A DNA stretch of 39,519 nucleotides from a virus. Location of the stretch: IMG/VR virus record IMGVR_UViG_3300017613_000438, positions 1 through 39,519 of that record, one strand, 5' to 3'. This document shows positions 10,571 through 34,199 of the stretch, piece by piece (within the stretch, counting starts at the first letter, position 1; each line of letters starts with the position of its first letter). A program made the position numbers and the translations under genes. The notes beneath the pieces are model-generated. The model made no database searches and was not told the origin of the DNA. It worked only from the letters and a program-made list of their open reading frames with translations.

Positions 10571-11205
10571 ACTCTTATCTCAATAACAGGAATTCGTGTA
10601 TTACTTATTAATGGTCCTTGTAAACTCATTGGTAATCTATCAATATCAAAACGACAAGGAACATGAAAGTGAAAACCAGCGGTTACTGTATCTGTAGCAG
10701 TAAGGGCACTAAAAGACATGACTCCAGTAATATAATTCATAGTAAAGCCAACACCTTCTGTTTGTGGCACACTATTAATTTCAACTATAACAGTACCATT
10801 TATTGGTTTAGTTATAGGTCTATATGTTATTTGACCTGCGGTATCATAAGCTTTAATTAAAGGAACTGACGTTTCGCCGCCAACAGCTGACGCAATTAAA
10901 GTTTGATCAGTTGCTGATATTGTATCAGTAATATCGCAAGATTTATGATCCATAGGATCTAGGTATTTAAAACCAAATGTTTTACCTAACATACTATGAA
11001 AAAACTTAATTACAATATAGCCTAATGCTGGAGTTTTAACACCATATTGTACTTCATAGAAATGTCTGGCATAAGGCCATCCAGGTATACGTTGTTCGTG
11101 ACCACTTTGTATGCCTTGTACAAAAGTCATAAACATTGGTCCGCCTACACTACCATTTGATATATCTGTAGGAAAAATTGCTGCATCTATAAAAGGAACG
11201 GCCAT
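10567..11205 (-). CDS. Distal tail protein, DUF2460 family (GTA gp12-like)
   Basis: 212 residues with the DUF2460/TIGR02217 signature: an N-terminal FPTDISNGSVGGPMFMT segment, then SGHEQRIPGWPYARHFYEVQYG, then FKYLDP, and a C-terminal FHFHVPCRFDIDRL. In gene transfer agents and related siphophages this protein forms the first ring after the tail tube. It lies between the tape measure and hub genes, as expected, with TAATG and ATGA overlaps on its two sides. The length is normal for the family. Confidence 0.88.
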   Translation of the reverse strand: MAVPFIDAAIFPTDISNGSVGGPMFMTFVQGIQSGHEQRIPGWPYARHFYEVQYGVKTPALGYIVIKFFHSMLGKTFGFKYLDPMDHKSCDITDTISATDQTLIASAVGGETSVPLIKAYDTAGQITYRPITKPINGTVIVEINSVPQTEGVGFTMNYITGVMSFSALTATDTVTAGFHFHVPCRFDIDRLPMSLQGPLISNTRIPVIEIRV

Positions 11206-14200
11206 TACATATTTCTCCCAGCCCTTTGAACCATTGATCTAAGCTGCACTTCCATTTGTCCCCTTGACGCATTAAAACTATCTGCGTTAGGTGTTGTTAC
11301 ATTAAAATTAACAATTGTAGTTCCTCCACTTTCTATATTTGGCGTAAAGGTTCCTTTCTTTGTAGGTGGTGTTACATTAATATTTTCTCCCGGTGTTGCT
11401 CTAAATGCAACTATTTGGGAATCTGTACCGCCTGTGCCACCAACATCAAAATTACCACCATAAGCTAAACCTGGTAAATTTACAAAACCTCCACCCATCG
11501 CCATTGTACCTGGACCACCTAAGCCACTACTTGCTAAGCCACCAATAGCAGGCATAGCAGGTGCAGCACCAAATAAGGCAGAACCAAATCCTGAGCCAAG
11601 GAAAGAATCAATTAAGCCACCCCCACCTCCAGGACCCATAATATATTTAGTAAGATTAGTAGCAATAGCTTCTGCTACCATTCTATTCAGCATAGACACA
11701 AAACTATCTGCTAAATTATCAAAGTTACCTTCCATGACTTCAAAGAAGAAATTAGAAAAGTTATCTTGCATTCCTTTTGCAAACTCTTCAGATAAAGCTT
11801 CCATTGATTTTAAGCCATTATCTGCATTGTCTACAATCTGTCGCCACTCATGTTTCATAACTTCTTTAATTTGTGCATTTGAAGCACCAACCGCTTCTAG
11901 TGCTGGTACTACTTCTTCTAGTCTTAAACGAAACTTTTGCTCTAATGAAATAGTCGTAGATAAAAGTTTATGTCCTTCTTGCATTAAAGCTTTTTTCTTT
12001 TCTGTTGCTTCACGTCCTGCTTCAACAGCTGCTACTCTTAACCGCTCTTGATCTTTAAGCAAATTCATATTTTGAGATAAAGCAGCAACAGTTTGAATCT
12101 GTTCGCGCATTGCTGCGACTTGATTGCGTTGGGCTTGTGTTACAGCTTTAGTTTCTAACTCTACTGCCTTTTGTTCTAAAGCTTGAATTTTAAATTGAGT
12201 ATTTAATGTATCTAAAGCTAAACCAGTTTTACCGAAAGCTTGGGCTTGCTGCTCTAACTTAAGGATAGTACTCGCAATAGATTTAGCAGCAGAACTATGA
12301 CCAGTATCAAAAGCTTTTAAAGAAGAAACATAAGCTTTATTGCTTGCTGTACGTCTTATAATTTGTTTTTCTAATTTTTCTTGTTCATTTAATATATTAT
12401 TAGGCTCTGCTGATGCTACGCCCAACTCCAAGAAATTTTTATTGCGTAGAACTTCAAATTTATGTGATATTAATTTGATATCTCGCTCGACATCATTCAT
12501 GCCTATTGTGTTAAGTTTAATGTTCAATTCGGTTAGTTTAGCCTTATCGACTAAATCTTGAACAATTTTTTCTATTAATTCAAATTGTTGTCTTGCTAAA
12601 GCCGCTGCCGCGTCTACTTCATGTACTTGACCTATTAAGTCATCTGTGCTTAATGAAGTTTGTTCTAATGCAACATTAATTTCATGTAATTCTCTATTTA
12701 ACTTTCTCGCATGGGGTGTAACGTGCCCAGCTATTCCATTTATTTCATCCCAGACAGTATACTGATCAGCCATATAATCAGCACTCTCTTTTAATATTGC
12801 TTTACGTTCAATAAGCTTATCATTTTGAACTTTAACATCTGCTGCTTTAGTGGCAATTTCTGTTTGGCCTATATCAGCCATTGTAGTAATAACTTCTTCT
12901 AATCTTGTATTAAAAGCATCTGCTCTTTCTGAAGCTTCTTTAAATGTCTTATTTATTTCAGCATTAAGTCTCGTTGCTTCTTCCGTACCATCATTATAAA
13001 CATAAATTGCGGTTGCTGCTGCGGTTATAGCAGCAATTGCGGCTGTCCAAGGATTCAGTGCTGCTAATACAATTAAGCGCATCAATAAATAGTCAACTCG
13101 GAAAGCTAGTGCTTTAAATCCTTTTTTCAGCATATTTATTGCTTTCATTAAGCCACCTGCGCCTAACAAACCTACTAATGGTTTTAACTTGTCGCCTAAA
13201 GTAATAAACGGAGCAGCAAAGCTTTTCAATCCTTTTTTAACCCATTGAAATGCCTTGCCTAAAGCTGCAAATGCACCACCAAGTCCCGCTGTTCCTATTG
13301 TACCAAGCATAGCCATGCCAGCCACATTAGCAAAATCAAAACTTTCTTTTAATTTATTTAGGCCATCAGAAGCAGATGTAGACGCATCTGCTATTGCTGT
13401 TGTAGAATCAGTGACAGATTGAAAAGTGTCACTGACCATTGTTGCTGTTGAAGTTACTCCTTCTAAACTTGAGCTTAATTTCTCTATTTCTGTGCCTAGC
13501 AAATCTGTGGCGGGCAACCATTCGGCAAAGGCTCTTACCCATTCAGCTACCATGTCTAAACCTTTACCTAATACATTACCTACAACATGGCCTATCTTCA
13601 TACCAAGTTGTGTCCAAGCATTAGTAAAGTTTTCTAATGAAGCACTAAACTTCTTTAATGCAGTCGGTAATAAACCGATAGTACGCTCTCGTAATAACTT
13701 ACCTAAATTTTCTACTAACTCAATTGAAACAACATTACCATTAGAAACTTCTTTTATAAACTTACCTAATTCATCTTTACCATAGCCCATTGCTTGAGCT
13801 GCTAAGTTCAAAGCACCAGGAATATGCTCACCAAGCTGTCTACGGAGTTCTTCCATCGACACTCGACCTTTGGATATCATCTGCTCTAAAGCAAGGAACA
13901 TACCTGAAGTACGTTGCTGATTTAAATTAAGAACACGAGCAGCAATAGCAAAGCTCTCAAATGTATGTGTTGCTTTTTGTACTGACAGTCCAGCTATTGT
14001 CGCAGAGTTAGTAAACTTAGAATATTCTTTAGTAACAGCTGCTATTGACAGTTTTAATCTAACCGCAATGTCAATTGATGTATTTAATAGTTTTGCCGCT
14101 TCACCTTGTGATCCTGTTACAAGTTGTAAGGCATTTCTAAAACCTAACATATCACTTGCTAATTGAGGTGTATGTTTTAAGAATTGAACAAAAGTTGAAA

Positions 14201-15197
14201 CTAGCCCACCAATAACACCTGTTAGTCCTCTTGCTGCTGCTTGAAATAGGTTAGCAACAGAAACACCTTCTTTCATGTTCTGTTTAGCTAATCGCCATGC
14301 TGCGCCTAATTTATTAACTTGACCGGCTTGATTTAGTGCGGCTATACCTAACCGTTTACTACTGTCTGCTAACTTAACACCAGTACGCAAAGCTTCCTGA
14401 TCTACTTTAGTTTTATTCTTTCTGGCTAGTTCTGCCCTTTTAGTAGCTGCGGCTTGTTCTTTCATCGCCGCGGATACAGCTTTGCTCCCGCCTAAAGAAG
14501 CAGTAGAAGAAAGAGATGCGGCACTAGTTCGTTGTAAATTCTTGTACAGCTGCTGTATACTTTTTAATTTGTTGAGCGAATCTTGTGCTTGAACTGAACT
14601 ATTTAATTTGGTCCAGAAATTCTGTTGAACTTGCTCTTGTCTTTTTAGTGACTCTCTTTCCGCACGTGCGAATTCTTCACGAGCTCTATGTCTATTTTGT
14701 AGCTGTGTCTGTTGCTTGGCCAGATTTTGTTTTCGTATACTTTCGAGAGAAGCACTATGTCGTCTTAAAGCTTCTTGTTCTTTTTGATATTGTTTTTGAA
14801 TCTTACTATAGTAATCAGCTCTTGTCTTTTCAAAATCACCTTTTGGAACAAAACTTGTTTTAAGGCCTTTTGAAGAAAAGTCTAAGCCACTACTTGTTTT
14901 AAGTAAGGAAGTCTGTAATTTATTAACTTCAGAAGTAAGAGCTTTAATATCATTTTTAAGAGTTTTACCTCCTTTACTCGACATGCTAGTAACATGCGCA
15001 AAGCCTAAACCAACTTTCTCAATATTCTCTCTAAGCTTCTCAGAGGAAGATTTAAAGTCAGTTGCCCAGTCTATCCCAGACTTACGCATCTGGGTCATAA
15101 CAGTATCGACTGTAGTTAGTTGTCGACTTAGATCACGTAAACCTTGTTCAGCTCTAAGCTTATCGATTTCTACGCTTACTTTGATTTGATCTGTCAT
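11205..15197 (-). CDS. Tail tape measure protein
   Basis: 1330 residues; sets tail length and is ejected during DNA entry. The N-terminal third is Lys/Arg/Glu/Gln-rich and predicted helical or coiled-coil (about 1-290). Next comes a tape-measure domain (about 330-520) with GEHIPGALNLAAQAMGYGKDEL, the most recognisable block. A hydrophobic Ala-rich segment lies near 700-735 (LNPWTAAIAAITAAATAIYV). More coiled-coil follows to about 1200, then a Gly-rich C-terminus (GGGGG ... GGTGGTDSQIVAF) like lambda-group tape measures. By the common rule of about 0.15 nm per residue the tail would be near 200 nm (inference). ATG has AGGA 8 bases upstream. It overlaps the end of the second chaperone frame by 38 bases. 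Confidence 0.93.
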   Translation of the reverse strand: MTDQIKVSVEIDKLRAEQGLRDLSRQLTTVDTVMTQMRKSGIDWATDFKSSSEKLRENIEKVGLGFAHVTSMSSKGGKTLKNDIKALTSEVNKLQTSLLKTSSGLDFSSKGLKTSFVPKGDFEKTRADYYSKIQKQYQKEQEALRRHSASLESIRKQNLAKQQTQLQNRHRAREEFARAERESLKRQEQVQQNFWTKLNSSVQAQDSLNKLKSIQQLYKNLQRTSAASLSSTASLGGSKAVSAAMKEQAAATKRAELARKNKTKVDQEALRTGVKLADSSKRLGIAALNQAGQVNKLGAAWRLAKQNMKEGVSVANLFQAAARGLTGVIGGLVSTFVQFLKHTPQLASDMLGFRNALQLVTGSQGEAAKLLNTSIDIAVRLKLSIAAVTKEYSKFTNSATIAGLSVQKATHTFESFAIAARVLNLNQQRTSGMFLALEQMISKGRVSMEELRRQLGEHIPGALNLAAQAMGYGKDELGKFIKEVSNGNVVSIELVENLGKLLRERTIGLLPTALKKFSASLENFTNAWTQLGMKIGHVVGNVLGKGLDMVAEWVRAFAEWLPATDLLGTEIEKLSSSLEGVTSTATMVSDTFQSVTDSTTAIADASTSASDGLNKLKESFDFANVAGMAMLGTIGTAGLGGAFAALGKAFQWVKKGLKSFAAPFITLGDKLKPLVGLLGAGGLMKAINMLKKGFKALAFRVDYLLMRLIVLAALNPWTAAIAAITAAATAIYVYNDGTEEATRLNAEINKTFKEASERADAFNTRLEEVITTMADIGQTEIATKAADVKVQNDKLIERKAILKESADYMADQYTVWDEINGIAGHVTPHARKLNRELHEINVALEQTSLSTDDLIGQVHEVDAAAALARQQFELIEKIVQDLVDKAKLTELNIKLNTIGMNDVERDIKLISHKFEVLRNKNFLELGVASAEPNNILNEQEKLEKQIIRRTASNKAYVSSLKAFDTGHSSAAKSIASTILKLEQQAQAFGKTGLALDTLNTQFKIQALEQKAVELETKAVTQAQRNQVAAMREQIQTVAALSQNMNLLKDQERLRVAAVEAGREATEKKKALMQEGHKLLSTTISLEQKFRLRLEEVVPALEAVGASNAQIKEVMKHEWRQIVDNADNGLKSMEALSEEFAKGMQDNFSNFFFEVMEGNFDNLADSFVSMLNRMVAEAIATNLTKYIMGPGGGGGLIDSFLGSGFGSALFGAAPAMPAIGGLASSGLGGPGTMAMGGGFVNLPGLAYGGNFDVGGTGGTDSQIVAFRATPGENINVTPPTKKGTFTPNIESGGTTIVNFNVTTPNADSFNASRGQMEVQLRSMVQRAGRNM

Positions 15198-15498
15198 GTT
15201 TTTTCCTAAGCTTTGATTGATACTTCAACATAGCCTCATCCATCGCTACGATGATTCTAACAAATTGATCTAATGCACACATAAGATCAAAATAATCAGA
15301 GAAGATCAACATCTCTGATACAGGGATCATGCCTTGGGGCTGTCTCGACGATTCTAGCATTCTAAATGTATTTAGAAACCAAACTACAATCTCATCCCTC
15401 GCTGGACTCAAGTCATCCAGGGGAGAGGATAAACCTCTCTCCTGGCGACTTTTATAGAATTTGATATCCTTACCATATTCTAAGTTCCATTCAAGCAG
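15160..15498 (-). CDS. Second tail assembly chaperone frame, lacking a normal start (GT-like)
   Basis: The first conventional start-like codon is TTG at 15411, but the frame is open and protein-like far upstream (LLEWNLEYGKDIKFYKSRQE...), back to a TGA at 15528-15526. There is no ATG, GTG or TTG before 15411. The frame lies -1 to the upstream chaperone and overlaps its end. Two routes fit: a -1 frameshift near AAAG at 15513-15510, giving a G-GT-like fusion as in lambda, or start at CTG 15498, which is 8 bases after AAAGGAG. Coordinates here use the CTG. The product of about 112 residues is helical with a very basic C-terminus. Position between chaperone and tape measure is the classical place for this gene. 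Confidence 0.72.
   Translation of the reverse strand: MLEWNLEYGKDIKFYKSRQERGLSSPLDDLSPARDEIVVWFLNTFRMLESSRQPQGMIPVSEMLIFSDYFDLMCALDQFVRIIVAMDEAMLKYQSKLRKKHDRSNQSKRRNR
15419..15442. other. Stem-loop inside the second chaperone frame
   Basis: On the minus strand an 11-12 base stem (with one G-T pair) closes a short A/T loop around 15429-15433. It looks like an intergenic terminator at first sight, but the open -1 frame runs through it (QERGLSSPLDD). It lies about 70 bases downstream of the candidate frameshift point, rather far for a standard stimulatory structure. There is no T run on the minus side. Confidence 0.5.
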
Positions 15499-15503
15499 CC
15501 GTA

Positions 15504-15884
15504 TTACTCCTTTGTGATTTGTTCCTCATCTTCTTCAAGGTAGTTATTAATATCATTTGCAAAATCAGTAATAAAATCACGGCAGTCAGAATCATTTAGT
15601 AATAACTCAACTGCGTTCTCTTTCGTATATGCTACGTTGCCCGGAAATGTATCTTTATTCCAACCTAGTAAAATTCCTTCAGCTAATGCTTCACAAAGAA
15701 GACGATCGCTAGTATCATCGTCTAAAGTATTATTTTCAACTTCTTTTTGATAAGGCTTAATTAACTGTCGAAATACATACTTATACTTACTATTATTCAT
15801 GCGTGCAACTAACAGTTCTACTCCGCGATATATAACTTTAGCGCCTAATTCTGCCTTATCGCCCACGGGTGTAATCTTTAACAT
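15504..15884 (-). CDS. Tail assembly chaperone (gpG-like)
   Basis: 126 residues, acidic, helical, with no enzymatic motif. It lies immediately after the tail tube gene and before the tape measure, the position of tail chaperones that coat the tape measure during assembly. The start MLKITPVGDKAEL (ATG 15884) is chosen over an upstream in-frame codon because GGAG lies about 10 bases before it. The C-terminus (EEDEEQITKE) ends in the overlap with the second chaperone frame. Identification is from context, not from a strong motif. Confidence 0.7.
   Translation of the reverse strand: MLKITPVGDKAELGAKVIYRGVELLVARMNNSKYKYVFRQLIKPYQKEVENNTLDDDTSDRLLCEALAEGILLGWNKDTFPGNVAYTKENAVELLLNDSDCRDFITDFANDINNYLEEDEEQITKE
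15507..15513 (-). promoter_or_regulatory. AAAGGAG: candidate frameshift site or Shine-Dalgarno for a CTG start
   Basis: This perfect ribosome-binding sequence sits in the last codons of the first chaperone (ACA AAG GAG TAA). The AAAG within it would allow a one-base backward slip on the AAG codon, entering the open -1 frame. Alternatively it is spaced 8 bases from CTG at 15498-15496. The preceding ACA codon re-pairs poorly after a slip, so this is not a classical heptamer. Confidence 0.45.
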
Positions 15885-15980: not shown

Positions 15981-17156
15981 TTAAGCATCAATAAATGTGA
16001 ACTGAATCATTGTGTCAGTTGTAGCATCGCGTAATGCTCGTAAGGAACCACTTTCCATGAGGAAGTTATCTTTACCATCTACTGGTTCTGATAGTTCTTC
16101 AAATTTACATTTAGGCATATACATAACAATCTGATTGCCTGATGCATCTTCCAATGTGAATGCCACACTGAAGTCTGTAGCCTGCTTATATAAATTATAA
16201 ACAGTTGTATCTTCAAAGTACAGTTCAATATCGCCTGTAATTTGTAAACTAAACGGTACTAGATCAACAGCACCTAATGTACCAATTGCTTCTGCTTGGT
16301 TAATTTGATTGTCAATGGCTAAGTTAAGAGTTTTAAACTCAACGCCAGCTGGCAAACCTGTAATATCAATACTAGTAATGGAACTAACAGAATTCATAAT
16401 ATCGTAAGCAGGAACTGCGTCGACACTTTCACCAGAAATAGCGGTGGCAGTACCTTCAGATGTCATACCTACAACATTCATATCGCCATTAAGAATTGAG
16501 CCTGTCTCAAAATTAAATGACATTGTATTAATCATGCAACCACGATAGTAGAATAAAGCAACTGTTCCACCAGGCGCATTCATTTGCTTACGGAAACTAT
16601 AAGCCTCAGGTACTTCTGCGCCGTTTCTGATAGTTACTGCGTCGATATCAATTGCTGGCGTTGCACTTTCGTCTACTAAAGTTGCATCAACAATTAAAGA
16701 ACTGGCTCCAACTGTTACCACACGGAAGACACCGTTATTAGCTGGATCAGAGAAACCAGAAATGCGCACAAAGTTGCCTACGACAATACCTTCAGTAACA
16801 AAGTTTGTTGTAGACGATGTATACTCACTAGTTGCATTAACAGCAGCAATATCTGTAGCGGCGCTGACAGCGACAGTAACCGCGGCTGTGCCTTGTAATA
16901 AAGATGTTAACAGAGGTTTGTAAGGGGCATAACTCAATTCATATGCGCAATCACCTCCTACAGTTGAGTTGACTACTACAAGATCATCAGTTTGACGATC
17001 TGAGCGGATAACTTCAGATACAGCAGTATCGATTTGATCACCCAAACCTACACTGGTAATCGGAAGCCGTTGAAAAGTCGGGGTAGCAGGTGTTGTACCC
17101 CTTGTGACTTCAGCAATATATGCGAAGTCTACATAGTTAGTTGATGGGATTGCCAT
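15981..17156 (-). CDS. Major tail (tube) protein
   Basis: 391 residues, beta-rich, with the N-terminus YVDFAYIAEVTRGTTPATP characteristic of siphophage tube proteins of the Phage_tube_2 kind. The middle (about 90-180) looks like an inserted Ig-like domain (YTSSTTNFVTEGIVVGNFVR...). A conserved-looking YRGCMINTMSFNFETG segment follows, then QITGDIELYFED near the C-terminus. It lies between the tail terminator and chaperone genes, as expected. This gene is the best evidence that the virion has a long non-contractile tail; no sheath gene is seen. Confidence 0.85.
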   Translation of the reverse strand: MAIPSTNYVDFAYIAEVTRGTTPATPTFQRLPITSVGLGDQIDTAVSEVIRSDRQTDDLVVVNSTVGGDCAYELSYAPYKPLLTSLLQGTAAVTVAVSAATDIAAVNATSEYTSSTTNFVTEGIVVGNFVRISGFSDPANNGVFRVVTVGASSLIVDATLVDESATPAIDIDAVTIRNGAEVPEAYSFRKQMNAPGGTVALFYYRGCMINTMSFNFETGSILNGDMNVVGMTSEGTATAISGESVDAVPAYDIMNSVSSITSIDITGLPAGVEFKTLNLAIDNQINQAEAIGTLGAVDLVPFSLQITGDIELYFEDTTVYNLYKQATDFSVAFTLEDASGNQIVMYMPKCKFEELSEPVDGKDNFLMESGSLRALRDATTDTMIQFTFIDA

Positions 17157-19025: not shown

Positions 19026-22000
19026 TCACATCTCCACGTTACTGTTAAATATTCTCTGGATACTTAGCGCTAATGTCTTTTTGCGCATAGTGCTTAATTT
19101 AAATTCTTTCTTCGATTCAATACTTAGGTCATATTTAACAGTTTGCACTAAGCTAAGCTTGAATTCTATTTTCTTCTCAATAGATAGATCAAAATGAACT
19201 ATCTCATTATTTATATAATTATATCCATGGCCTAAGCCTTCACCTTCTTCATTATCGCCTGTACCAATAAAGTCAGCAATAATTTGGCCAGCATAAGTTG
19301 TTCCTGCTGCTGTACCTGCTTGGCCTTCATCAATAAAATCAAGACCAAGTATACCACTATAACCTTGACCTGAACCTACTTCATTCTGTCCTACTAAGAA
19401 TTGATCTCTTAGATCGGTACCATCTTGCCCTTGCCCATCGCCTGTTTCTTCTTGTCCTTTTGGACTTACACCTAAAGCTATAATTCCAGTGTGAGTAGAA
19501 CCAGAAGCTGTACTATTTAGTCCTGTACCAGTAAAGGAAATAACACTTCCAAATATACCAGTACCACTTTGTCCTTGACCAGCTCCAACTTCTTCCTCAC
19601 CAGTAAGGACATGACCATTAACAATTGATCCAGCGTAGCTTGTGCCTGATCCAACTTCTTCATCACCAATACCAATAAATGGAATTGTATCAGAAGTTGT
19701 TAAAGTTCCTACATGCCCAGTACCTGTTGCTGTTTCATTCTGGCCTACGTCAATAAAATCTAATACAATTTGGCCAGCATAGCCTGTGCCATTACCAATT
19801 CCAGCTGAACCACTATTTGGCGAGACATCAAATGATACAGATCCACCCCAACCTGTACCATTACCAACTTCATTTTGGCCTACAAGTACTAAGCCTTTAT
19901 CTAGTGATCCAGCATGACCAATTCCTGAACCTACTTCTTGATCACTTTCGCCAGTAAAGCCTAATGATAGTTGTCCTGCTCTACCAGTACCAGAACCAAC
20001 ATCTTGACTTCCATTTCCTCCATTATAATCAGCAAGTAATGTTCCTGCTCGACCAGTTCCAGTTCCAACTTCTTCATCACCAGAATCTACAAAAGATACT
20101 GAGTCTGAAGTTGTTATTGTTCCTACAAATCCTGTTCCTGCTCCAACCTCTTGCTGACCAGTTCCTTTAAAATCAAGAACAATAGAACCAGCTCTTCCTG
20201 TGCCTGAACCTACCTCTTCTGATCCTTCACCTAATAGATCATGTGCCGCTGTACCAGTATATCCAGTACCTGTGCCAACTTCATTAGTTGATAAACCAAT
20301 AAAGTCAGCGATAATACTTCCATCTTGACCTGTGCCATTACCAACTTCATTAATCCCTGTATAATCAATATTAACAGAGAATATACCAATTTGGCCTGTG
20401 CCAGTCGCAACCTCTTCGTTGCCATCACCAACAAAATCAGCAGATATAATTCCAGCATGACCTATGCCAGAACCAATTCCAGCCAAGCCACCATTAGGCT
20501 TTACATCAAAAGATGTTGAACCTCCCCATCCAGTACCACTTCCTGTGCCTTGCGATCCTTGTAATATCTGATCTCTTATTGATGATCCATTTTGGCCAGC
20601 ACCAGCAGCTATTCCATTAGTTGCTGTACCAATGAAATCAATAGCATTAGACCCGACATAACCTACGCCAGAACCAGTGCTATTAACTCCAGACACAATA
20701 TAGTCGGCAACAATTGTGCCTATGTATCCAACTCCCCCACCATCCTCATATGAGCCTTCACCTATAAATGCTCTAGTCAGCGTACCACCGTAACCGGTTC
20801 CTGACCCTACATCCTCATCACCCTCGTCTATGAAATCAGCAAGGACAGTGCCGGTGCGTCCAGTTCCTGCTGCCGTGCCTGTAGCACCAACACCAGAGAA
20901 GCCAGTACCTAGGGTCAGGGTTCCTGCGTATCCGGTCCCTGCTCCAACATCTTCATCACCCTCATCAATAAAGTCGAGAATGATCTGGCCTACGTGGCCT
21001 GTGCCTGTGCCGCTCCCTGCCGATCCGCTGTTTGGGGTAACGTCAAAGGATACTGCTCCGCCATATCCGGTACCTGTACCTGATCCTTGTGTACCTTGTA
21101 GGAACTGGTCACGTATTGTGGACCCGGCATATCCAATACCTGACCCTACTTCATTAGCAGCTTCACCCTCAAAATCAATTGCTTGAGTACCGGCATTACC
21201 TGTACCGACACCAACGTCCTGTGCGCCAGTGCCAATATAGTCTGCAGCTATCTGACCAGTTTGGCCAGTGCCCGCTCCAGTTTCATCGTCACCTATCCCC
21301 GTGAAGTCTATAAGGGTAGTAGTGGTGAGCTGGCCAACGCGGCCAGTACCTGCACCGACTTCTTGTGCCCCTGTATCGAAGAAGCCAAGAACCTTCTGCC
21401 CTGCGTACCCAACGCCAGCGCCTACTTCCTCGTCACCTGTACCTGTGAAATCAATAAGTGTTGTTACACTTAGCGTTCCTGCCCGTCCTGTGCCTGCTCC
21501 GACTTCTTGAGTTCCTGTCCCTTTGAAATCGGTAGAGATAGTTCCTGCGCGGCCAGTACCTGCCCCAGTTCCATTGGTACCAGTACCAGTAAAATCAGTA
21601 ACTGCTTCTGCTATCGAATTTATGTATTCATCATTTTGGGCAGGACGCAAGAAGAAGTATTCGTTTTCTTTTAATGCTTCGCGTTCACTATCTGATAAAT
21701 TACGGTCCCAAGCATAAAAGAGTACTTGTTTGCCAGACGCATGTTCATCCTCTGCTACTACATTACCGTAGTAGGCTAAATCGCCTCCTGCAGAGTGGTA
21801 GGCAGTAGCACAACTGCCTGCTGTGCCACCAATATCTGCCTTGATTCCGCTCGCACCTTCTGACCAGACAAGAACGAGTAAATCATTCAAAGCGTATTCA
21901 GCGGCGGTTACGTTCCACCCTGCCCAACCGCTGCCACCTATATTCGCCTTATCATCATTATTCCAATATCCAAATATGCCTAGTGAATCTACCTGCCCTG

Positions 22001-23222
22001 TCGTTGCGGAACATATTCCGCAGGAGTAAACCACATTGTTTGTGAATACCATGTTGGTCATCTTGGAGACAACCGTGGCACCTCCATACAGATTTATTGC
22101 TCCCCCTGTGCTAAATGATAAAGAATTAGCTTCATTAGGGGTTGATCCGTAATCGGCGCAAATGCCGTAATCGCCATCGACAATCCGACTGGCGGTATCC
22201 ACTACAGGTCCTTCGCCATTGACGAGATTGACTTCGCCGCCTATCCAGCAAACTCTCAAACCATTGGTAATTGAGTGTGACCAATCTACCTCAACAGCAC
22301 CTATAGGCTTAGCGTGAGCATTAAGGAGTAATGGTTCACGTTGCGTAATAGTGAACACATCTTGATGCGGGGTATAAAAAAAGGTACCAGAGAATGTAGG
22401 AGGATTGGCAGTAGTCGTGCCAGCTCGGCCTGTACCTGTGGCTGTACCATTTGTGCCTACACCAGAAAAGTCTGGGTTTATCTCAAGCTCACCAAGAAAG
22501 ACAGGACTATTGTCTGATGGTCTGATTATCTGATATTCGTTCTGTACGTATCTTTCAACTTCGTCATCAGTTAGTGAACGATCCCAAACAACGGCACTCT
22601 TTACTGCGCCATCTGTTTGGTCTGTACCTTCGTTAACACCAATAGTGAGTGGGTCAGTATCGTAAACCAGCGTTCCTGTTGGTACGGTCCCGGTATTAGA
22701 ACTTACAAACTTACCTTCTACATCGTAAGTATCTATTCTGAATAAAGAGTTAGAAATCCACCTACCTACAAAGTAGTAGTAGGTGTTCGCCGTCATAGTT
22801 ACGGCTGACGTAGTTTGGTTTGTCCCTGTAGATGTCGAGATGTTGAACCTCGATGATCTATCTGTAGGACTTAGCTGATTTATAGCGTAAGAAACATACC
22901 CACTAGTTTTGTTCTTATGCAGAAATGCTGCATAAGTGTCCCCGCCTGTTGAGCCGTGACGGGCCTTAACGATGACAGTTATCTCGCTCGATGGGCGAGT
23001 CATAACATCGTGGTTAGAATACTCCAGCCCCGCCGCGCTCGGAGGGGAGAATGCATATGCTTCTTCACCTTCTTCGACAACGAGCGTTCCATCACCAGTG
23101 GGTGGGGAGAAATACCCAGTTGTATCTATCTTGTTTGGAAAGTGAAGTGCGTAGCACAGCCCATCAGTCAGCGGATGTGACCAATCAATTTCAAATGAGG
23201 CTGTGGGCTTCTTATCCGCCAC
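19026..23222 (-). CDS. Giant repeat protein: two LamG-like domains, about 35 Gly-rich repeats, decapeptide tail
   Basis: 1398 residues, probable virion fibre or surface protein. A LamG-like domain at about 1-235 (DWSHPLTDGLCYALHFP) is followed by one isolated repeat-like segment (about 252-272). A second LamG-like domain spans about 310-535 (DWSHSITNGLRVCW). Residues about 543-1340 are about 35 tandem 22-23 residue units of the form DFIGxGxxEVGxGTGxAGxIxx. Residues about 1344-1393 are five 10-residue units (FxLSIxxKxx). The GTG start at 23222 overlaps the preceding stop by 11 bases and has AGGG 7 bases upstream. Repeat units alternate strand-forming and Gly-rich stretches, suggesting an elongated beta solenoid. 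Codon and GC character change inside the repeats near 20.8 kb. Cysteines are confined to the LamG-like part. Confidence 0.8.
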   Translation of the reverse strand: MADKKPTASFEIDWSHPLTDGLCYALHFPNKIDTTGYFSPPTGDGTLVVEEGEEAYAFSPPSAAGLEYSNHDVMTRPSSEITVIVKARHGSTGGDTYAAFLHKNKTSGYVSYAINQLSPTDRSSRFNISTSTGTNQTTSAVTMTANTYYYFVGRWISNSLFRIDTYDVEGKFVSSNTGTVPTGTLVYDTDPLTIGVNEGTDQTDGAVKSAVVWDRSLTDDEVERYVQNEYQIIRPSDNSPVFLGELEINPDFSGVGTNGTATGTGRAGTTTANPPTFSGTFFYTPHQDVFTITQREPLLLNAHAKPIGAVEVDWSHSITNGLRVCWIGGEVNLVNGEGPVVDTASRIVDGDYGICADYGSTPNEANSLSFSTGGAINLYGGATVVSKMTNMVFTNNVVYSCGICSATTGQVDSLGIFGYWNNDDKANIGGSGWAGWNVTAAEYALNDLLVLVWSEGASGIKADIGGTAGSCATAYHSAGGDLAYYGNVVAEDEHASGKQVLFYAWDRNLSDSEREALKENEYFFLRPAQNDEYINSIAEAVTDFTGTGTNGTGAGTGRAGTISTDFKGTGTQEVGAGTGRAGTLSVTTLIDFTGTGDEEVGAGVGYAGQKVLGFFDTGAQEVGAGTGRVGQLTTTTLIDFTGIGDDETGAGTGQTGQIAADYIGTGAQDVGVGTGNAGTQAIDFEGEAANEVGSGIGYAGSTIRDQFLQGTQGSGTGTGYGGAVSFDVTPNSGSAGSGTGTGHVGQIILDFIDEGDEDVGAGTGYAGTLTLGTGFSGVGATGTAAGTGRTGTVLADFIDEGDEDVGSGTGYGGTLTRAFIGEGSYEDGGGVGYIGTIVADYIVSGVNSTGSGVGYVGSNAIDFIGTATNGIAAGAGQNGSSIRDQILQGSQGTGSGTGWGGSTSFDVKPNGGLAGIGSGIGHAGIISADFVGDGNEEVATGTGQIGIFSVNIDYTGINEVGNGTGQDGSIIADFIGLSTNEVGTGTGYTGTAAHDLLGEGSEEVGSGTGRAGSIVLDFKGTGQQEVGAGTGFVGTITTSDSVSFVDSGDEEVGTGTGRAGTLLADYNGGNGSQDVGSGTGRAGQLSLGFTGESDQEVGSGIGHAGSLDKGLVLVGQNEVGNGTGWGGSVSFDVSPNSGSAGIGNGTGYAGQIVLDFIDVGQNETATGTGHVGTLTTSDTIPFIGIGDEEVGSGTSYAGSIVNGHVLTGEEEVGAGQGQSGTGIFGSVISFTGTGLNSTASGSTHTGIIALGVSPKGQEETGDGQGQDGTDLRDQFLVGQNEVGSGQGYSGILGLDFIDEGQAGTAAGTTYAGQIIADFIGTGDNEEGEGLGHGYNYINNEIVHFDLSIEKKIEFKLSLVQTVKYDLSIESKKEFKLSTMRKKTLALSIQRIFNSNVEM
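19044..19193 (-). repeat. Five decapeptide repeats at the C-terminus
   Basis: Five consecutive 30-base units encode FDLSIEKKIE, FKLSLVQTVK, YDLSIESKKE, FKLSTMRKKT and LALSIQRIFN. The consensus is aromatic-x-L-S-aliphatic-x-x-K-x-x. The DNA is diverged, so the repeat is seen at the protein level. Confidence 0.75.
19204..21595 (-). repeat. About 35 tandem 66-69 bp units encoding Gly-rich 22-23-mers
   Basis: Consensus D-F-I-G-x-G-x-x-E-V-G-x-G-T-G-Y-A-G-x-I-x-x, counted by eye as about 35 copies. A composite block (a DQFLQG-type unit ending GWGGSxSF, followed by a DVxPNxGxAG unit) recurs near 21060, 20520 and 19840. This shows higher-order duplication on top of the single-unit array. Confidence 0.85.
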
Positions 23223-34144: not shown

Positions 34145-34199
34145 CAGTACTACAGTTGTCCCTCTTATGAAGGACAACTATACTATTTACAGTACTACA
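34145..34199 (-). other. Hairpin flanked by a 10-base direct repeat
   Basis: AGTTGTCC (34154-34161) and GGACAACT (34172-34179) form an 8-bp perfect stem with a 10-base loop, 8 bases after the stop of the 170-residue gene. CAGTACTACA occurs on both sides (34145-34154 and 34190-34199). No T run follows, so it is a poor intrinsic terminator; RNA processing or mRNA protection is possible. Confidence 0.6.

Follow-up and report, generated by a model that had tools for sequence, protein, structure and literature searches.

Probable −1 frameshifting at A_AAG_GAG in a phage tail assembly chaperone pair that lacks the canonical slip heptamer

Few recoding events of tailed phages are as conserved as the G/GT frameshift of tail assembly chaperones (TACs), which both programs and annotators detect mainly through an X_XXY_YYZ heptamer. 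In lambda, the genes run in the order tail tube, G, T and tape measure, with T lying in the −1 frame, overlapping G and having no start codon of its own; lambda-type slip sites have the form X_XXY_YYZ, that of lambda being G_GGA_AAG. The locus described here has the same gene order and the same startless, overlapping −1 frame, and a fusion would likewise be expected beside the G-like product; it differs in its junction, A_AAG_GAG. The TACs of the phrog_313, phrog_8233 and phrog_3817 families (YuA-like phages, Xp15, RcTitan, Dinoroseobacter R5C and others like them) are homologous to the present pair over both domains, but A_AAA_AAC or G_GGA_AAC is kept in all 22 of these phages that were read and is not found here. 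In actinophage TACs, PRFect has predicted the motifs GGGGGAA (“fivetwo”) and CCCGGAA (“threetwotwo”), for which re-pairing of GAA with GGA by a G:U pair was proposed (PMC10885494). The present site would share with them P-site re-pairing on XXX and the shift of a Glu-tRNA from GAR onto GGA, with G:U as its middle pair; it differs in that X is A, the last codon is GAG and the phage lineage is another, and AAAGGAG is missing from the main-text motif examples of that paper. Finally, the A_AAG tetramers of IS1222 (PMC5009743) and of synthetic E. coli constructs involve the same Lys-tRNA slip from AAG to AAA as would occur here; such tetramers usually have a pseudoknot or stem-loop close by and a Shine-Dalgarno sequence ahead of them, whereas the strong hairpin of the present locus lies about 55-60 nt off.

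The locus is found in an IMG/VR viral contig of 39,519 nucleotides, referred to here as the window; the gene coordinates are on the minus strand (Table 1). The TAC1-TAC2 pair sits between a tail tube gene (PF18906) and a tape measure gene (TMP_3), and both of its parts are homologous to known chaperone domains. TAC1 alone matches the fused-TAC profile phrog_8233 with 39.5 bits (E=8.7e-10), while the conceptual −1 fusion of 241 aa matches it in a single stretch (25-235) with 71.5 bits (E=1.5e-19); the fusion is thus collinear with the fused families, and the gain in score speaks for slippage. Judged by position, phase and homology, the two frames are a G/GT-type tail-assembly chaperone pair. 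TAC1 has tblastn matches in 188 phage records. A relative roughly 70% identical to the window (L019) shares 78% amino acid identity in the tail tube protein, 67% in TAC1 and 61% in the T frame, and homology of the T frame to relatives begins at about 15513. At its other end, the T frame is overlapped for 38 nt (15197-15160) by the start of the tape measure gene, and neither the window nor L003-L007 nor L017 has the small extra gene that many relatives carry between T and tape measure.

Table 1. Features of the chaperone locus and its junction in the window.
Feature	Position	Strand	Remarks
Tail tube protein, upstream neighbour	15981..17156	−	PF18906 Phage_tube_2, E=8e-35
TAC1, first tail assembly chaperone, G-like	15504..15884	−	126 aa, ATG, GGAG upstream; phrog_313, E=1.6e-17
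TAC2, second chaperone frame, T-like	15160..15525	−	−1 frame relative to TAC1; phrog_3817 “tail chaperonin”, E=2.1e-5
Tape measure protein	11205..15197	−	ATG 15197; phrog_2335, E=6e-43; PF20155 TMP_3, E=3e-22
GAGGA, tentative weak upstream Shine-Dalgarno stimulator	15523..15527	−	9 nt before the shift site
Inferred shift site A_AAG_GAG, also Shine-Dalgarno-like	15507..15513	−	aligned position of the relatives’ heptamer
TAC1 stop TAA, immediately 3′ of the shift site	15504..15506	−	most relatives have their stop at this position too, counted from the heptamer
CTG, rival start codon	15496..15498	−	in L019, missing in L022
Stem-loop 1, AUGGAA/UUCUAU plus inner pairs	15454..15490	−	16 nt after the shift site; consensus of the window and L019
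Stem-loop 2, in the T frame	15411..15450	−	−25.1 kcal/mol, z −7.0; core common to L019

A first-pass annotation of the window, made from its letters, had described the T frame as open and startless, and that description holds throughout. After TGA 15528-15526 the frame is open on the minus strand to a stop at 15162-15160, a run of 122 codons including the stop; it overlaps the end of TAC1 at ACA AAG GAG TAA and contains no ATG, GTG or TTG ahead of TTG 15411. The same −1 phase, overlap with the end of TAC1 and lack of a standard start are found in L019 and in a more distant relative, L022. As had also been noted, no in-phase X_XXY_YYZ heptamer is present at the junction of the window, which counts against slippage, and AAAGGAG is separated from CTG 15498 by eight bases, TAATACGG. 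The position of the window’s GAGGA is occupied by GAAGA in L019 and by GAGGA in L022, and a search of the junction against Rfam returned nothing. The junction is no product of a sequencing or assembly indel, a possibility that was weighed and dismissed: it recurs in a second contig (L002), which over 10.4 kb shows 12 mismatches to the window, without gaps (99.88% identity), and in L019, which aligns across the junction without gaps (ttACAAAGGAGTAATAaGGCTGCT in L019, tcACAAAGGAGTAATAcGGCTGCT in the window).

Outside the clade to which the window belongs, all 27 relatives that were read, namely five IMG/VR records (L003-L007) and 22 phages, carry A_AAA_AAC or G_GGA_AAC in phase at the end of TAC1. 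The phages include Erwinia AH03, Xanthomonas Xp15, Rhodobacter RcRudolph and RcThunderbird, Stenotrophomonas Sonora, Pseudomonas YuA, Dinoroseobacter R5C, Klebsiella e270.1, Salmonella Solent and Caulobacter CcrSwift. In the heptamer-bearing relatives the −1 frame runs on from the site with K-L, and a joined TAC product is annotated in the records of several. The site aligns base for base with that of the window, ATC ACA AAA AAC TAA in L038 standing against ATC ACA AAG GAG TAA, and at the level of the junction CAAAAAACTGATAGATGTC-CTTGAATGG in L006 corresponds to CAAAGGAGTAATACGGCTG-CTTGAATGG in the window. Relatives were reached through TAC1, through the T frame of L006 and through scans of IMG/VR; the T frame of the window or of L019 found no matches in a collection of 50,697 phage records, bacterial and archaeal genome scans with TAC1 and TAC2 profiles returned no relative, a broad T alignment of 10 sequences held no stretch conserved enough for scanning, and additional searches among viruses, with queries taken from TAC1, the tail tube protein and L022, yielded no further members of the clade.

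That clade consists of the window, L019 and L022, which group together with support of 100/99 in a tree built by maximum likelihood from the joined proteins and are placed with Xp15 (97/94), nested among heptamer-bearing relatives. None of the three has a heptamer. L019 has an AAAGGAG identical to that of the window, and L022, whose T frame is 32-34% identical, has A_AAG_CCA, its TAC1 ending ATC AAA AAA GTA AAG CCA GAA TAA before the −1 continuation KARIIRSLKWNLEYGK. The sole element common to all three is an in-phase A_AAG at the homologous junction. Because the three form one supported clade, the heptamer was probably lost once, and because that clade is nested among relatives that retain it, the −1 frame would then have been kept open while the lineages diverged considerably.

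The point of entry into the T frame can be approached through what is conserved ahead of its possible starts. Ahead of TTG 15411, the window, L019, L022 and L003-L007 all encode an identical peptide, WNLEY, despite DNA differences at synonymous positions, in keeping with the earlier suggestion that this part of the frame encodes protein. Over the same upstream part, the window and L019 show 7, 8 and 11 differences at codon positions 1 to 3, with 6 synonymous codons in this frame against 1-2 in the other frames; this coding signal is modest, so the argument rests on the wider homology. TTG 15411 therefore cannot be the only start. That T might begin there alone, as a protein of 83 aa with the upstream part of the frame, including VIRLLEWNLEYGK, left untranslated, has little to recommend it beyond the fact that no standard start codon precedes this TTG in the frame, and is scarcely tenable: in L019 the codon is TTA, with no ATG, GTG or TTG close by. 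The first-pass annotation had named a normal downstream start in homologues, or peptides beginning only at this TTG, as the outcome that would speak against its proposal; what the homologues display is the TTA of L019 and a conserved block ahead of the TTG. Further upstream, ahead of CTG 15498, an Ile-Arg pair is kept through varied codons (ATA CGG in the window, ATA AGG in L019 and ATC CGT in L022), its Ile being invariant in an alignment that also includes L003, L005 and L006. This conservation, of two codons only, speaks for entry from TAC1 rather than for initiation at CTG. In the alignment of homologues proposed earlier, conservation of the −1 frame reaches as far as the position of the slip site and does not begin just at 15498.

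The RNA downstream of the junction is structured. The hairpin previously drawn at 15419-15442 proved to be real and to lie within the coding frame, but its size had been understated, the core spanning 15444-15418 and the extended element 15450-15411. This second stem-loop ranks first of 26,320 segments of 41 nt taken from the whole contig on either strand (its mirror on the opposite strand being the same element). In L019, which has it at the same place, G-C stands where the window has an A.C mismatch, G-U has taken the place of two other pairs, and the loop sequence differs. The region from +7 to +130 folds with −41.0 kcal/mol in the window and −41.9 kcal/mol in L019, against means of −21.8 and −21.2 kcal/mol, respectively, for synonymous recodings that used the phage’s own codon usage, and not one of the 300 trials for either sequence was as stable. 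Since recoding never reached the observed stability, the structure appears, from these comparisons, to be under selection in the window and L019, two of the three lineages; L022, in the same comparison, has no unusual structure after the junction. A stimulatory role is probable, such that the downstream structured RNA helps slippage, although stimulators usually lie 5-8 nt downstream of a slip site (PMC4066793), and here stem-loop 1 is at 16 nt and stem-loop 2 at about 55-62 nt. Both the distance of the strongest hairpin, far beyond the usual one, and the case of L022 count against slippage. A search by eye for a pseudoknot between hairpin loop and spacer found none that was supported, the loops being UUUAU and UAAAG. 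It is also conceivable that the downstream hairpins act as a ribosome termination structure that affects re-initiation (cf. PMC7518266).

Taken together, these observations favour programmed −1 frameshifting at A_AAG_GAG, yielding a TAC1-TAC2 (GT) fusion beside TAC1, with a probability of roughly 76%. What we infer beyond the sequence comparison is the slippage itself, along with the codon at which it takes place, how often it does so and what the hairpins contribute. A small share of the ribosomes translating TAC1 would slip back by one base at A_AAG_GAG before the TAA and continue in the −1 frame, giving a 241-aa GT fusion beside abundant TAC1. The Lys-tRNA would re-pair from AAG to AAA with a full match, and a Glu-tRNA on GAG could shift onto GGA by way of a G:U pair in the middle position, or would be absent if the Lys-tRNA slipped alone; the tandem slip predicts the junction ...QITKE-VIRLLEWN and the single slip ...QITKG-VIRLLEWN. 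By analogy, AAAGGAG would obey the logic of GGGGGAA-type sites, with X=A. In E. coli, A_AAG was the strongest of sixteen tetramers when a stimulator was present, the six clearly active tetramers giving 0.26-5.6% frameshifting with the IS3 pseudoknot, but it is barely shifty without a stimulator (PMC4066793), which counts against slippage. A low efficiency would suffice, given that the G:GT ratio of lambda is about 30:1 (PMC5009743). No report of AAAGGAG as a slip site was found in the open-access literature, and the site is filed as a non-canonical variant because it departs from the X_XXY_YYZ form of canonical −1 signals.

The first-pass annotation had left the choice between a frameshift and a CTG start open. 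Three lines of evidence, namely conservation up to the slip site, the heptamer in relatives and the missing CTG and Shine-Dalgarno sequence in L022, now tip it towards the frameshift. If AAAGGAG acted instead as a Shine-Dalgarno sequence, a separate T protein would start at CTG 15498 or, with less likelihood, at ATA 15504, perhaps using ribosomes that had ended at the TAA. The motif and the CTG are ideally spaced, an arrangement kept in L019 that counts against slippage, and similar Shine-Dalgarno sequences, aaggagtaatcgATG and aaaggagtagttgactaATG, precede other genes of the contig (ATG 24934 and ATG 9054). Sharma et al. inferred low initiation in their own constructs at a −1-frame AUA lying 7 nt past a Shine-Dalgarno-like motif (PMC4066793), and weak initiation could also explain a low G:T ratio. 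Such a start is nevertheless unlikely. L022 has neither the Shine-Dalgarno sequence nor the CTG, although it lacks a heptamer and a standard start as well; Ile-Arg is preserved upstream of the CTG; every relative with an annotation implies a fusion; a weak hairpin, AGGAGU/GGCUGCU, is predicted that would mask both the Shine-Dalgarno sequence and the CTG in the window and L019; and CUG is poorly used by the E. coli initiator tRNA (PMC11497404). Initiation at a non-AUG codon would further imply that the clade had exchanged frameshifting for weak coupled initiation, with T unfused to G, and this wider proposition, in which an AAAGGAG-driven, stop-coupled CTG start replaced programmed frameshifting throughout the clade and no GT fusion is made, is distinctly unlikely.

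Two other possibilities can be set against slippage at A_AAG_GAG. The fusion might be reached by another route, such as slippage of RNA polymerase, bypassing over the stop or ribosomal slippage at another codon. A polymerase or ribosome could indeed slip on the A6 run that lies upstream in L022, but the longest run at the junction of the window and of L019 is AAA, and bypassing is not needed, since homology aligns without gaps across the junction; this route is highly improbable. It is more improbable still that the T domain is dispensed with or decaying in the clade, as the loss of the heptamer and the absence of a start codon might suggest, for the frame is open in three diverged lineages, with 61% amino acid identity to L019, and the RNA structure appears to be under selection.

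The clade offers two natural replacements of the heptamer, A_AAG_GAG and A_AAG_CCA, together with codon-selected RNA structure in two of its members, and the AAAGGAG junction constitutes a natural test of the minimal sequence needed for a slip. Should −1 slippage prove true, it would show a slip site drifting to a minimal form, and possible compensation, and would extend to an A-type site the G:U-assisted re-pairing of Glu-tRNA that has so far been predicted in GC-rich actinophages. It would also explain why T domains are missed or assigned false downstream starts. Should the CTG be used, the clade would instead exemplify a rare change in which recoding gives way to initiation at a non-AUG codon, with a tail chaperone escaping recoding through one of the rarest bacterial start codons.

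Several additional features deserve mention. In the public phage records L011 (1968-2225), L028 (794-1087), L035 (821-1060) and L036 (833-1081), the T frame is annotated separately with a downstream start, even though the first chaperone of each closes with a slip heptamer in phase; these annotations are likely to be truncated, missed frameshift fusions. The A6 run of L022 (2970-3000) is out of phase and precedes the chaperone stop (ATC AAA AAA GTA AAG), and polymerase slippage there, or ribosomal slippage on A_AAA or A_AAG, could provide a second non-canonical solution within the clade. Elsewhere in the window, the second strongest short hairpin of the contig (34185-34145, minus strand, −21.9 kcal/mol) lies just past the end of a gene at 34187 and is probably a transcription terminator. 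Finally, 19026-23222 on the minus strand encodes a protein of 1398 aa made up mostly of repeats around TGTGxxGTGxGRAGT, with an N-terminal part that looks lectin-like on visual inspection; it is an unusual protein of repetitive make-up, structural or for adhesion, amid the head-tail genes.
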